From Candidatus Poribacteria bacterium (GTDB lineage: Bacteria; Poribacteria; WGA-4E; WGA-3G): a DNA stretch of 42,468 bases. Where the stretch lies: positions 1 to 42,468 of the forward strand of contig JAJEIP010000133.1 in NCBI GenBank assembly GCA_022827885.1, in the 5' to 3' direction. Below the pieces are notes generated by a model, which worked only from the letters and a program-made list of their open reading frames with translations, searched no databases and had not been told where the DNA came from. The translations under genes and the position numbers were made by a program. Positions 2,117 through 11,134 of the stretch are shown piece after piece. Each line of letters begins with the position of its first letter. Position 1 is the first letter of the stretch.

Positions 2117-3997
2117 GTGAAAAAGACTTTGCTTTGCGCGCTCGTGATATGCTGCGTGGCTACATATCAGAGTTATGCACAGATTGAGTGGGATGCTGAA
2201 AAATTTATGCCGTTGTCCGAAGTGAAACAGGGCATGAAAGGGAAAGGTTACACCATATTTTTCGGAACAACGGTGGAGGAATTTGAATGTGAAGTTGTCA
2301 GTGTCGAACACAACTTTATCCCAGGGTGGCACGTTGTATGGATGGAGGGATTGAGCGACAACTTTAAACGCACGGGTGTTGCAGGCGGAATGAGTGGTAG
2401 TCCAATATACATTGACGGACGTCTCATGGGCGCGATTTCTCTCGGTTTTTTTAGCCAGCGAGAACATTCCAACGGTTTTGGGGTTACCCCCTTTGAATTG
2501 ATGGTGAAAGTCGCACAGCGTGGGATGGAGCCCGATTTAAGTTACGCAGGTGCTCAACTCTTTAATCTCGACGCTTCCGCAGCGATCCATCAACATGGAT
2601 TGGATGCCGGGCAGTCTCTGCTCCGCGATGGTCAGGTTACACAGGCACCACGTGCTTTTGATGAAATGTGGCTGGACAGTGTTACCGATATGCCTTCCCA
2701 AATGAGATCCGCACAATTATCTATTCCTGTCGCACTTCCAACCCTTAATTCGGAGATGATACGATTTATCAAGCCGGTTTTTGATAAACTCAATTTTACG
2801 CCGGTCCAAGCATCAGGCGGTGGCGGTCCCGTTAAGGAATCGCCGGTTGAAGAGGGACAGATGATTGGGACGGAATTTGTCCGGGGTGATGTTTCATTTT
2901 TTGGTTATGGAACAATCACTCACGTAGATGGTAATGAACTCCTCGCTTACGGGCATTCTGCAGGCGGAGAAGGGAACGTCAATGTCCCGCTTTCTGGTGG
3001 GTATGTGCACTTTATCTTTCCGAGCCGTTCCCGCTCCTTCAAAGTAGCATCACCGACGCAGCCCATCGGGACTTTAGTGCAAGATCGGGATCCTGCGATT
3101 GCGGGTATCATCGGAAAACACCCGAGTTATATTCCTGTAAATGTCAATGTGCAGACCGCCGATAGTAAACGGCATCAGAGGTCCTACGAAGTGATCCGGC
3201 ATCGGAGTTTCTCTCCGATTTATACAGGGATGGCGGCATGGATGCTCATGGACACACTTGAGTTTTATGTGGGAAACTACACCCTCAATATGGAAGCAAC
3301 CATCACGCTGAAAGAACATCCCGACCTCAAGAACCGCGAATTAGTCTATAAGAATATATATTCTTCGAGAGGATCCCCCGGGTTTGGGGTCATGCAGACG
3401 CTCCTGATGCCGATGTTGCAGTTATCCCTCAACCAGTATACGAGTGTTCCGGTCGAAGATGTCACCATTGATGTGAGCATAGAGGATAAACGGCGAACGG
3501 CGCGGATTCAAAGCCTTCGGATGGATAAACTCCGCTATCGACCTGGGGATACCATTGAAGTGGAAATTACGTTGCAACCCTATTTTGAAAATCCCATCGT
3601 GCAGACTGGGACAATCACGATTCCCAAAGACGTTCCAGAAGGACTTGTCACACTTATCGCCACCAATGCCAGTTTTCACGAATCTTGGCAGCGTAACCGG
3701 GCACCCCTGAACTTTCGGCACAGGAACATCAATCAATTGGTCGAATTGCTGCAGCGGGGTGAAAATAACTCGGAAATTATTATGGAACTTTTTGTGCCTG
3801 AACCGGGACTCACTGTTCAAGGTGAAGAATTCGCACATCTACCGCCTTCAGTCATGTCAGTTATGAATACCGCAAAGCAGATTGGCAATAGCGGATATAC
3901 GATGGGCACGACGCTCCACATTGATAAAATGCCAACAGACTATGTGGTTTATGGAAGCGGCATGATGCGGTTCGTCGTGGACAAAAACGCGGAATAA
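2117..3997 (+). CDS. Secreted SpoIVB/S55-type peptidase-like protein
   Basis: 626 residues. A signal peptide (about 1-21, ending SYA before Q22) predicts export. The region from about 30 to 130 (GMKGKGYTIFFGTTVEEFECEV, then GMSGSPIYIDGRLMGAISL at 91-109 and GFGVTPFEL) matches the serine-containing part of peptidase family S55 (SpoIVB), with S93 or S95 in GMSGSP as the nucleophile candidate. A second family block follows at about 272-340: LAYGHSAGGEGN with H280, then PTQPIGTLVQDRDPAIAGIIG. In classical SpoIVB the GH block precedes the GMSGSP block, so the order here is reversed. No PDZ domain was recognised. The C-terminal third is beta-rich and unassigned. Start chosen at GTG 2117: GAGAGGAG at 2101-2108 gives good spacing, and an ATG 5 bp upstream hits a stop after two codons. 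Proteolytic activity and substrate are unknown. Confidence 0.85.
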   Translation: MKKTLLCALVICCVATYQSYAQIEWDAEKFMPLSEVKQGMKGKGYTIFFGTTVEEFECEVVSVEHNFIPGWHVVWMEGLSDNFKRTGVAGGMSGSPIYIDGRLMGAISLGFFSQREHSNGFGVTPFELMVKVAQRGMEPDLSYAGAQLFNLDASAAIHQHGLDAGQSLLRDGQVTQAPRAFDEMWLDSVTDMPSQMRSAQLSIPVALPTLNSEMIRFIKPVFDKLNFTPVQASGGGGPVKESPVEEGQMIGTEFVRGDVSFFGYGTITHVDGNELLAYGHSAGGEGNVNVPLSGGYVHFIFPSRSRSFKVASPTQPIGTLVQDRDPAIAGIIGKHPSYIPVNVNVQTADSKRHQRSYEVIRHRSFSPIYTGMAAWMLMDTLEFYVGNYTLNMEATITLKEHPDLKNRELVYKNIYSSRGSPGFGVMQTLLMPMLQLSLNQYTSVPVEDVTIDVSIEDKRRTARIQSLRMDKLRYRPGDTIEVEITLQPYFENPIVQTGTITIPKDVPEGLVTLIATNASFHESWQRNRAPLNFRHRNINQLVELLQRGENNSEIIMELFVPEPGLTVQGEEFAHLPPSVMSVMNTAKQIGNSGYTMGTTLHIDKMPTDYVVYGSGMMRFVVDKNAE

Positions 3998-8939: not shown

Positions 8940-8958
8940 GGATTTTTAACTTTATGCA

Positions 8959-9100
8959 CATAGCACTCCGGAATCAACGGTATGAACGCCGTATGGCATT
9001 CCCCGGGAGTGCGGTCGCTTGTAGCATGCTTTTCTATAGACATATTGCTCCGCTGGAGCAAAGAACCCGCTTGACACGTAACAGATCTCTTCACGCCAGA
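8959..9100. repeat. 142-bp hairpin repeat, copy 1 (upstream of hicAB)
   Basis: Compared by hand with copy 2 at 9751-9892: 51 of 54 positions identical in the left block (8959-9012) and 64 of 69 in the right block (9032-9100). The 19 nt between them (9013-9031) match at only 5 of 19 positions. The left block ends in a palindrome, GCATTCCC and GGGAGTGC at 8996-9012. The right block begins with the box TTCTATAGACAT (9032-9043) and the hairpin TTGCTCC-GCT-GGAGCAA. No protein-coding sense was found. This element and the hicAB promoter fill the gap between 8940 and hicA. Confidence 0.9.
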
Positions 9101-9141
9101 TGAGGTTTAATAAATAAATTGGGTAATTACATATTTTATAC

Positions 9142-9170
9142 TTGTGTTTGATGCTGGTGGGTGCTATAAT
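9142..9170 (+). promoter_or_regulatory. Predicted promoter of hicAB
   Basis: TTGTGT (9142-9147), 17 bp, TATAAT (9165-9170), with an extended -10 (TGC directly before TATAAT). It lies 60 bp upstream of hicA. HicB-type antitoxins usually repress such promoters, but no clear operator palindrome was identified. Confidence 0.7.
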
Positions 9171-9230
9171 TACAGAAGGCATTCAACATAGGCTTATAAG
9201 TCATTCGCAGACATTCGATAGATACCTACT

Positions 9231-9419
9231 ATGAAGTTTAGACAGGTCACTAAAATGATTCAAAATGATGGATGGTATCTGGACCGAACACGAGGGAGTC
9301 ATAAACAGTATAAACATCCGAGCAAACCCGGAGTTGTGACGATTGCAGGAAAACCCAATGAAGATGTCTCCAAAGGGACACTCAATAACATTCTGAAACA
9401 AGCGAGTCTCAAGAGTTAA
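9231..9419 (+). CDS. hicA: HicA-family mRNA interferase toxin
   Basis: 62 residues, the usual size for HicA toxins, which are small double-stranded-RNA-binding-fold RNases that cleave mRNA when not bound by HicB. The family pattern is clear: KFRQVTKMIQNDGWYLDRTRGSHKQYKHP, with the catalytic histidine in GSHKQY at about residue 24, followed by VTIAGKPNEDVSKGTLNNILKQA. No good Shine-Dalgarno precedes the ATG, which would keep toxin translation low. The antitoxin gene starts 12 bp downstream, so the two form a bicistron. The pair is enclosed between two copies of a 142-bp repeat. Confidence 0.93.
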   Translation: MKFRQVTKMIQNDGWYLDRTRGSHKQYKHPSKPGVVTIAGKPNEDVSKGTLNNILKQASLKS

Positions 9420-9431
9420 GGGAGAAATCTT

Positions 9432-9674
9432 ATGGAATACGTCGTTATTTTTGAAAAGGGTGAGAACAATTATAGTGCTTATGCCCCGGATCTCCCAGGA
9501 TGCGGTGTTGTGGGTGAAACGTTGGAAGAAGTCCGCACATTGATCGCCGAAGCCATCGAGTTTCATATTGAAGGACTACAGGCAGCGGGAGAGGTTGTTC
9601 CACAGCCCTTATTTACACGACCTGTCCAAAACCCACCAGATGCGTCGTCCGAATTGATTACGGCACAGGTTTAG
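9432..9674 (+). CDS. hicB: HicB-family antitoxin
   Basis: 80 residues with the HicB core: an N-terminal strand (YVVIFEKGENNYSAYAPDLPGC) followed by GVVGETLEEVRTLIAEAIEFHIEGL, the degraded RNase-H-like fold that blocks HicA. This is a short version: after about residue 60 only a Pro-rich tail (VPQPLFTRPV) follows and no helix-turn-helix or ribbon-helix-helix DNA-binding domain is visible. Its ability to autoregulate the promoter is therefore uncertain. AAGGGAG about 7 nt before the ATG gives stronger translation than hicA, as expected for an antitoxin. Confidence 0.92.
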   Translation: MEYVVIFEKGENNYSAYAPDLPGCGVVGETLEEVRTLIAEAIEFHIEGLQAAGEVVPQPLFTRPVQNPPDASSELITAQV

Positions 9675-9750
9675 TTTGCAGCGTCTAAACACTTCATTCG
9701 GTTGCTCGGTTAAGCGCCTAAGAAACTCTGGCTGCATCTTAGGCTGCAAA

Positions 9751-9892
9751 CATAGCACTCCAGAATCAACGGTATGAATGCCATATGGCATTCCCCGGGA
9801 GTGCAGCTTGATGACCCTCAATATTCTATAGACATATTGCTCCGCTGGAGCAAAGAACTCTCTTGACACGCAACGGATCTCCTCACGCCAGA
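9751..9892. repeat. 142-bp hairpin repeat, copy 2 (downstream of hicAB)
   Basis: Direct copy of 8959-9100 with identical length and block structure. The left block is 9751-9804, the variable 19 nt 9805-9823 and the right block 9824-9892. The box TTCTATAGACATAT (9824-9837) recurs as an exact inverted copy, ATATGTCTATAGAA, at 9899-9912 just outside the right edge. The two could pair as a 14-bp stem enclosing the second hairpin. Copy 1 lacks this inverted arm. Confidence 0.9.
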
Positions 9893-9959
9893 GGCTTGAT
9901 ATGTCTATAGAAATCTATGTCTTAAACCGAACTTAAAATTGTGATAAGAAGGGTTCGTA

Positions 9960-9983
9960 GAGAGGCGATTTATCGCCGCTCTC
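9960..9983. repeat. Intergenic hairpin
   Basis: GAGA-GGCGAT-TT-ATCGCC-GC-TCTC: ten paired bases with a 2-nt bulge. It has no T-run on either strand, so it is not an obvious terminator. It lies between repeat copy 2 and the cadherin-type remnant and looks like another dispersed palindrome. Confidence 0.6.
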
Positions 9984-10003
9984 AAGATGCGTGAATTGCG
10001 CCA

Positions 10004-10615
10004 TTATATCTGATGTACGTCCTCTCTGTCCTCATTTATGATGACGAGGCGTCCTATCTTCGTGCCGATGCCGTCTCCTCTATAAAAGGTGTTATTCGTC
10101 AGCCGTAAGTCTGTCGGTGCCTCGTTTAGATCGTTGATGAAGATGGTGTAGGGTTTCTCTAAACTCTCGTTCGTCTCTCTGTCGGTCTCCCGCACGGTTA
10201 TCTCGTAACCCCATTGCACTTCGTAGTTGAAGATTTTGTTTGTCACTAACTTCGTGCCATCGGCTATGCTGAAGTCTCTATTGCCATCTACAACACTGTA
10301 TGCCAAACGTTTTCCGACGGGAACGCTAAACGTGCCAACGATAGAACCGATCGGTTGGTTCTCGTCTATCCTGTTGCTTGAAAGGTGGATCGCATCTACG
10401 TCTATCTCTGAGGCAGTCACAGGCTCACCGAGCCGGTTGCCCTCAAGGTCCGAGGCAGTCTGCACACGGACGATAAACGGGTCAACGCTGACAGAGACTT
10501 TACAACGGATACTGGTAGCGCGCTTGCCCGGTTGGCACGTGCCACGCCAATGAACACCGCTTTCGGAAGTGCTATACCTTTTTTCGCCCTTGTTCGTGGT
10601 ATAGGTAATCCGCAA
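10004..10615 (-). pseudogene. Cadherin-repeat protein remnant
   Basis: The minus-strand frame encodes about 200 residues with clear cadherin-like repeat features: IDENQPIGSIVGTFSV, AYSVVDGNRDFSI, FNYEVQWGYEITVRETD and FINDLNEAPTDLRL, then the start of a second repeat that stops at VHQI. Such repeats normally occur in tandem in very large calcium-dependent adhesion proteins. Here there is about one and a quarter repeat and no signal peptide. The only start codon is a TTG inside the frame. Upstream in frame the reading runs straight into repeat copy 3 and meets TAG. I read this as a fragment truncated at both ends; a short expressed gene is less likely. Confidence 0.7.
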
Positions 10616-10640
10616 TGTGTCGTCAACCTTGACCGATTCA

Positions 10641-10730
10641 TGGCACCCCTACGGGTGCAGCTCCTTGAATGTCCGATTTTCTATAGACATAACACCCCTA
10701 CGGGGTTTGAAGAAACGCTTTGGGTTATGT
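10641..10730. repeat. Diverged third copy of the hairpin repeat
   Basis: Same architecture as the 142-bp repeats with diverged sequence. ATGGCA leads into the hairpin GCACCC-CTAC-GGGTGC (10643-10658). Then come 20 unrelated nt (10659-10678), the box TTCTATAGACAT (10679-10690), and the hairpin ACCCC-TAC-GGGGT followed by GAAGAAACGCTT, which resembles AAAGAACCCGCTT of copy 1. Both arms of each hairpin differ from copies 1 and 2 in a pairing-preserving way. ACATAAC (10687-10693) and GTTATGT (10724-10730) form an additional inverted pair around the second hairpin. Confidence 0.75.
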
Positions 10731-10810
10731 TTAACCTAAAGAGGTATTCTCCCCGGGGCAGTGAACCCAACATTTTTCTTTTTCAGAGGCTACAAATAGG
10801 TCGGTATAAC

Positions 10811-10911
10811 GTTGGGTTTCGCTATCTCCTTGATTAATATGAGGGGTAGGGTCCTGAAATGGGCTTGGCGTGTCCGTGTTGTCTTCCTCAGTTCCGCTCA
10901 ACCCAACCTAC
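10811..10911. repeat. Split GTTGGGTT-type palindromic repeat
   Basis: GTTGGGTTTCGCT (10811-10823) and TTCCGCTCAACCCAACCTAC (10892-10911) are the two inverted halves of a repeat that I recall as a compact palindrome in other bacterial genomes. Here they are separated by 68 bp of unrelated sequence. The element would fold into a long stem with a large loop. Confidence 0.5.
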
Positions 10912-11134
10912 GATGCTCTATGATTTTTTCTAAAATTGATGCCTATGGCGCGGTTTTAAACAGGACTGAGGCAACGTGTAAACGTAATTCTAAAATCTAC
11001 TATATTTAGAATAAATTAGCGTCCTAACATGTAAAGTTTACCAGAATTGAGGGAATGCAGTTAAATTTTAATCGCCTGTCTGCGTAAGTTCTCTGTAAAA
11101 AAATAGGAAAGAGATATTTCCGTTTTCTACACGT
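10912..11134. other. Intergenic stretch without recognised gene
   Basis: AT-rich sequence between the split repeat and the truD promoter. No plausible reading frame, RNA gene or strong hairpin was seen beyond the small palindrome GTAAAGTTTAC near 11031-11041. The remaining non-repeat stretches between 9675 and 11134 likewise hold no supported gene other than the cadherin-type remnant. Confidence 0.5.

Follow-up and report, generated by a model that had tools for sequence, protein, structure and literature searches.

A dispersed paired-hairpin repeat of Poribacteria as the likely partner of TnpA-Y1 subclass 1.2 transposases

The repeat found at positions 10641-10730 (hereafter copy 3) of contig JAJEIP010000133.1 (Candidatus Poribacteria bacterium, assembly GCA_022827885.1; the whole analysed stretch of 42,468 nucleotides is referred to as the window) is a decayed copy of a paired-hairpin module, which most likely (with a probability that we place at roughly 0.6) constitutes the cognate repeat of the TnpA-Y1 transposases of subclass 1.2. 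This subclass (Y---Q--HH, DH[IV]H and WQ motifs, a length of about 148 aa and low copy number, with members in Bacteroidota) is close to the IS200/IS605 transposases, yet neither insertion sequence (IS) ends nor repetitive extragenic palindromes (REPs) were recorded for it (Quentin 2018, PMC6006769), and we encountered no report of either in the open-licence literature from 2018 on, nor in that on RAYT/TIRYT. The paired-hairpin module offers a concrete candidate substrate for subclass 1.2, with register and spacing conserved across phyla, and also accounts for an abundant intergenic repeat family in Poribacteria.

Within its own 5.13-Mb genome, the 12-mer TTCTATAGACAT that forms the box of copy 3 occurs 74 times (reversed control: 0), and across the genus the box is dispersed in 4-74 copies per genome. 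The alignment of all copies yielded a family unit composed of the box (TT)CTATAGACAT, one base, and a 7-bp stem with the triloop GCT, TAC or TCT. Such units mostly stand two in a row and in the same direction (box and hairpin, 19-20 nt, box and hairpin), the gap between the first hairpin and the second box being 19-20 nt long in almost every copy scored across three genomes (reversed-flank control: 0/156), while the sequence after the second hairpin is typically GAAGA-like and without a T run. The original prediction, which had placed a hairpin, 20 nt, TTCTATAGACAT and a second hairpin in this order within 10641-10730, is borne out by copy 3, as this arrangement is present at 10643-10708 and its single strand folds into two hairpins (-12.3 kcal/mol, z = -3.05). 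The accompanying view that the interiors are unrelated was overstated, given that a comparison of 28 distinct copies from the own genome shows them to be homologous (52% mean identity between pairs vs 26% for shuffled sequences). A CRISPR-like array with variable 20-nt spacers was ruled out, since the spacers are homologous and usually only one pair is present.

Selection on a folded form of the repeat is supported by the covariation within its second stem. For this analysis we gathered 156 distinct copies from the window's own genome and two relatives (G010 and G005; throughout, G-numbers denote the genomes compared and L-numbers the loci, and the G010 chromosome is OX639992.1), which were picked by the 12-mer alone, so that pairing was not selected for. 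Across these copies the second stem is kept through A-T/G-C and C-G/T-A/G-C exchanges, and the paired change from GCTCC/GGAGC to ACCCC/GGGGT, from which folding had originally been argued, belongs to a real covariation. The three best column pairs (G-test with average product correction) are the stem pairs 5, 3 and 1. The covariation test that had been suggested was run with a null of our own design, which keeps the FastTree tree and the changes per column and differs from R-scape: none of 200 simulations attained the score of pair 5, pair 3 had an E of 0.075, and pair 1 was not significant (E = 5.4). The other compensatory change cited (first stem, CATTCCC/GGGAGTG to CACCC/GGGTG) was a misparse and drops out of the argument, because the edge of a 36-nt loop insert had been paired (a CATTCCC-C-GGGAGTG hairpin would leave a loop of 1 nt); copies 1 and 2 really pair GCACTCC with GGAGTGC. 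Mismatches at pairs 2-7 were uninformative as to strand or type of nucleic acid (5 G-T vs 6 A-C); sequence alone does not decide between folded DNA and RNA, and we favour DNA on account of the association with a transposase for single-strand DNA and the lack of a gene-orientation preference (both described below).

The own genome contains four Y1_Tnp genes, and one of them (a Y1/HUH gene on contig C59) has units on both sides, on the minus strand upstream and on the plus strand downstream, i.e. as inverted pairs. No units flank the other three, of which two carry a class-2 type Y...NP motif and the third is truncated; the absence of flanking units led us to rule out a class-2 RAYT as the partner of the repeat. 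The C59 protein (159 aa, with DHIH and WQ) scores over the cut-off with the IS200/IS605 model (71.7 bits) and under it with REP_Tyr_transpos (28, cut-off 80), and among 17 homologues P-[DN]-H-x-H, WQ and Y115...Q119..H122 H123 are conserved (Y115, Q119, H122 and H123 being invariant). These residues agree with the signature published for TnpA-Y1 subclass 1.2 (Y---Q--HH), and the gene is likewise low in copy number (1-4 matches per genome among carriers). The same inverted bracketing recurs at homologues from Poribacteria, Bacteroidota, Ignavibacteria, Kapabacteria, Verrucomicrobia, an Opitutales and others (best 80 related loci in public genomes; density and orientation statistics cover 81 loci), with box and stems diverged outside Poribacteria. 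Hairpin density amounts to 5.33/kb at up to 300 nt from the gene vs 0.41/kb beyond 500 nt (13-fold), and 201 of the 239 classified hairpins point as predicted (upstream 107 minus and 18 plus, downstream 94 plus and 20 minus). Moreover, in 65 of 89 cases neighbouring hairpins of like orientation lie 47-54 nt apart, and 54 non-Poribacteria loci share the 5' consensus CTATWAAYAT..C, in the same register as CTATAGACAT. In some relatives the units are amplified in tandem beside tnpA, as at L073 (G010), with 7 units of a 50-nt period. Unit arrays were also observed in G022 (L305, L306, L304), with periods of 71 bp (6 copies) and about 120 bp (5 copies), together with an array beside tnpA.

Many of the Poribacteria modules reside within ~150-bp miniature inverted-repeat transposable elements (MITEs), with inverted ends ACC(C/T)AAGTTGC...GCAACTTGGGT and 7-bp TANNNTA target duplications. 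Among 48 copies with MITE ends, the 7-bp flanks are identical in 28 and differ by one mismatch in 8 (shuffled partners: 4.7% and 13%), which gives a duplication at 0-1 mismatch in 36/48, and the site matching the L055 element is empty in G010. The same ends also bound elements without a hairpin pair (L310, L318, L321, L322), and a second carrier in G018, with the ends GTGTGTAAA...TTTACACAC, contains pairs as well; for these two reasons the hairpin pair is a module taken up by several carriers. Because identical inverted repeats enclose pair-less elements, the MITEs are probably moved by a separate transposase, and this is probably of the DDE type; a limited search of the elements read found no DDE transposase with the ends ACCCAAGTTGC...GCAACTTGGGT. 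Furthermore, two tnpA genes lie in separately inserted 844-bp units with these MITE ends (L069 503-1347, L157 867-1711), whose ends are near-perfect to perfect and whose 7-bp duplications are perfect (TATAAGA, TATATTA). In both units no gene is recognised apart from the Y1 gene, which is accompanied by its hairpin pairs, and tnpA may be cargo there too. As side observations, the ends ACC(C/T)AAGTTGC..GCAACTTGGGT with TANNNTA duplications delimit a MITE superfamily with varied interiors (L310, L313, L318, L321, L322), and G018 (L296-L302) carries head-to-head mini elements of two pairs, with boxes 76 or 120 bp apart and the ends GTGTGTAAA...TTTACACAC, which presumably resemble ends of the IS256 type.

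Since the module brackets these genes across phyla, it is probably the recognition sequence of a Y1/HUH single-strand transposase. From work on IS608, ISDra2 and TnpA-REP (PMC8266576, PMC6006769) we infer that the enzyme would read single-stranded DNA in folded form, with a tag on the 5' side. It would fold one of the module's strands (e.g. while the DNA is being replicated), would recognise two hairpins at a distance of about 50 nt, each subunit of a dimer perhaps taking one, might use the box as a guide or tag, and would cut and join near the hairpins. The fixed distance between the hairpins suggests that both are held at once, and such a mechanism would account for the covariation, for the conservation of the box, for hairpins that keep their distance while the interior drifts, and for the units amplified in tandem beside the gene. 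Replication-coupled folding would moreover predict a replication-strand bias, and in G010 the box strand does switch with the replication arms (23 plus and 6 minus on one, 7 and 13 on the other; p = 0.003, free-split permutation p = 0.014; dnaA served as origin stand-in, GC skew being too weak for checking), a bias that we consider suggestive only. Several observations weigh against the module as the substrate of this transposase. Of four complete genomes, just one shows a clear strand bias, with none in the other three individually (pooled p = 0.007), and for pairs lacking MITE ends no clean empty site turned up, which bears on the mobility of the pair alone. In 12 genomes outside Poribacteria, the strict pattern found the hairpins once or twice only (in G062 beside the gene), which means that dispersal is not general. 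Within the genus, gene presence and copy number are loosely linked (60 boxes but no match to the gene in G018), and gene-repeat co-occurrence there is uninformative, both being too common. Finally, hairpins so near the gene could instead regulate the expression of tnpA.

A function in RNA (i.e. the pair as a terminator, attenuator or mRNA-stabilising hairpin under selection for what it does to adjacent genes) would suit stable hairpins that are intergenic in 89 of 100 copies from two complete relatives (17% of sequence expected), and REP elements elsewhere can act in this manner (PMC6006769, PMC3733652). The copies, however, are oriented without regard to genes (in tandem gene pairs 33 run with the genes and 35 against them, and convergent and divergent pairs contain 10 each), no Rfam family matches the repeat, a GAAGA-like sequence rather than a T run typically follows the second hairpin, and the pairs upstream of tnpA are directed away from the gene; we regard an RNA element as quite improbable. 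An intrinsic terminator or cis-regulator was rejected, as neither an orientation pattern nor a T run after the hairpin is present.

The MITE carriers raise a different explanation, namely that the pair is mere internal cargo with hairpins kept by the needs of the MITE or by drift, and that the Y1 gene was captured by accident between two inverted MITEs. The 48 MITE-bounded copies (most with 7-bp duplications) and the two 844-bp tnpA units that share these ends and have perfect duplications are what would be expected of it, but the pair-less elements imply that the MITE does not need the pair, pairs also occur in the second carrier of G018, and they border tnpA also in phyla that showed none of these MITE ends, a cross-phylum association that weakens this explanation and leaves it unlikely. 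The 844-bp units, with tnpA as sole recognised gene in two separate insertions, together with the limited search that returned no DDE gene with these ends, could be taken to mean that subclass 1.2 TnpA itself moves the 844-bp and ~150-bp elements. Subclass 1.2 would then be a distinct single-strand transposase system acting on direct hairpin pairs spaced by a constant ~50 nt, and in Poribacteria its own enzyme would mobilise elements that have terminal inverted repeats and 7-bp target duplications. To our knowledge, though, the known Y1 enzymes (IS608/ISDra2) make no target duplication, and we know of no Y1/HUH enzyme that mobilises elements of such structure. As hairpin-less elements have the same ends and a complete set of such ends is lacking at most of the examined subclass 1.2 loci, we hold this scenario to be very improbable.

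The module copies of the window (Table 1) all lie in one inserted interval, which is absent from relatives: its flanks are joined directly in G030 (query 1-243 beside 2407-3001) and are 108 bp apart in G017. Scans for the MITE ends detected no intact ones around copy 3. A fourth, inverted unit forms with copy 2 a head-to-head layout like that of the 76-bp mini elements L301 and L302 from a relative. The inserted interval further harbors, between copies 1 and 2, a HicA/HicB toxin-antitoxin pair (9232-9675). At many copies a 36-nt sequence, GGAATCAACGGTATGAATGCC.TATGGCATTCCCCG, takes the place of hairpin loops (window 8970-9005 and 9762-9797; e.g. L024, L053), in one case nested within itself (L053), and a second mobile sequence, ATGAAGATTAAGAATTTAATCGGGTAATT...AATTACCCAAATATTTTATTAAACTTCAT, is likewise found in hairpin tips (window 9098-9130; L204, L312, L316). 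With two mobile sequences inserted in hairpin tips, the loops look like insertion hot spots.

Table 1. Coordinates of the module copies and associated features within the window.
Feature	Position	Strand	Remarks
Inserted interval containing all window copies	8943..11105	.	
Copy 1, first hairpin	8963..9012	+	Arms 8963-8969 (GCACTCC) / 9006-9012 (GGAGTGC); folding supports
Copy 1, loop insert	8970-9005		36 nt, foreign, GGAATCAACGG...CCCCG, in place of triloop
Copy 1, interior	9013..9031	+	19 nt
Copy 1, box and second hairpin	9032..9061	+	Box 9032-9043; hairpin TTGCTCC-GCT-GGAGCAA 9045-9061
Copy 1, inverted-unit hairpin start	9091..9099	-	TCACGCC AG; loop interrupted by other insert ATGAGGTTTAATAAATAAATTGGGTAAT...; similar end in L312
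Copy 2, first hairpin	9755..9804	+	Arms 9755-9761 (GCACTCC) / 9798-9804 (GGAGTGC); loop insert of copy 1 kind at 9762-9797; folding supports
Copy 2, interior	9805..9823	+	19 nt
Copy 2, box and second hairpin	9824..9853	+	Box 9824-9835; hairpin TTGCTCC-GCT-GGAGCAA 9837-9853
Fourth, inverted unit	9883..9912	-	Box 9901-9912; hairpin TCAAGCC-TCT-GGCGTGA 9883-9899
Copy 3, first hairpin	10643..10658	+	GCACCC-CTAC-GGGTGC; family form GCACCCC-TAC-GGGGTGC less one G
Copy 3, interior	10659..10678	+	20 nt, AGCTCCTTGAATGTCCGATT; resembles family consensus ..TTGAATAC.CC.TT
Copy 3, box	10679..10690	+	TTCTATAGACAT
Copy 3, second hairpin	10692..10708	+	ACACCCC-TAC-GGGGTTT, 6/7 pairs; core ACCCC/GGGGT at 10694-10706

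Set beside known systems, the C59-type proteins agree with TnpA-Y1 subclass 1.2 in their motifs (DHIH, WQ, Y---Q--HH), short length, low copy number and Bacteroidota members, and differ from the subclass as published (described as having no REP-like flanks) in that oriented hairpin pairs flank most of the examined members, Poribacteria included. With IS200/IS605 (IS608, ISDra2) the module shares the transposase superfamily and subterminal hairpins with a 5' guide; the IS200/IS605 ends, however, are single hairpins of the same orientation, without inverted repeats or duplications, whereas here two pairs are present and inverted, and L069 and L157 have inverted ends and 7-bp duplications. Many of the copies dispersed through the window's genus lie in MITEs with terminal inverted repeats, 7-bp target duplications and no gene, of which the hairpin pair is cargo and not part of the ends. 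In the manner of the REP/RAYT REPtrons (PMC2817692, PMC3733652, PMC6006769), a Y1/HUH gene is placed between inverted short tagged palindromes, and as for the REPs of RAYT/TnpA-REP, many dispersed intergenic copies exist in Poribacteria (though not, by the strict pattern, in the 12 other genomes). The REP tag is GT[AG]G 5' of the hairpin as opposed to CTATNNAYAT here (the CTATAGACAT box), and the cognate REP protein is of class 2 (Y---NP), in contrast to the class 1, IS200-like protein (Y---Q--HH) associated with the module. Taken together, the sequence comparisons suggest that the paired-hairpin module is best read as the REP-like partner of a transposase subclass previously thought to have none.
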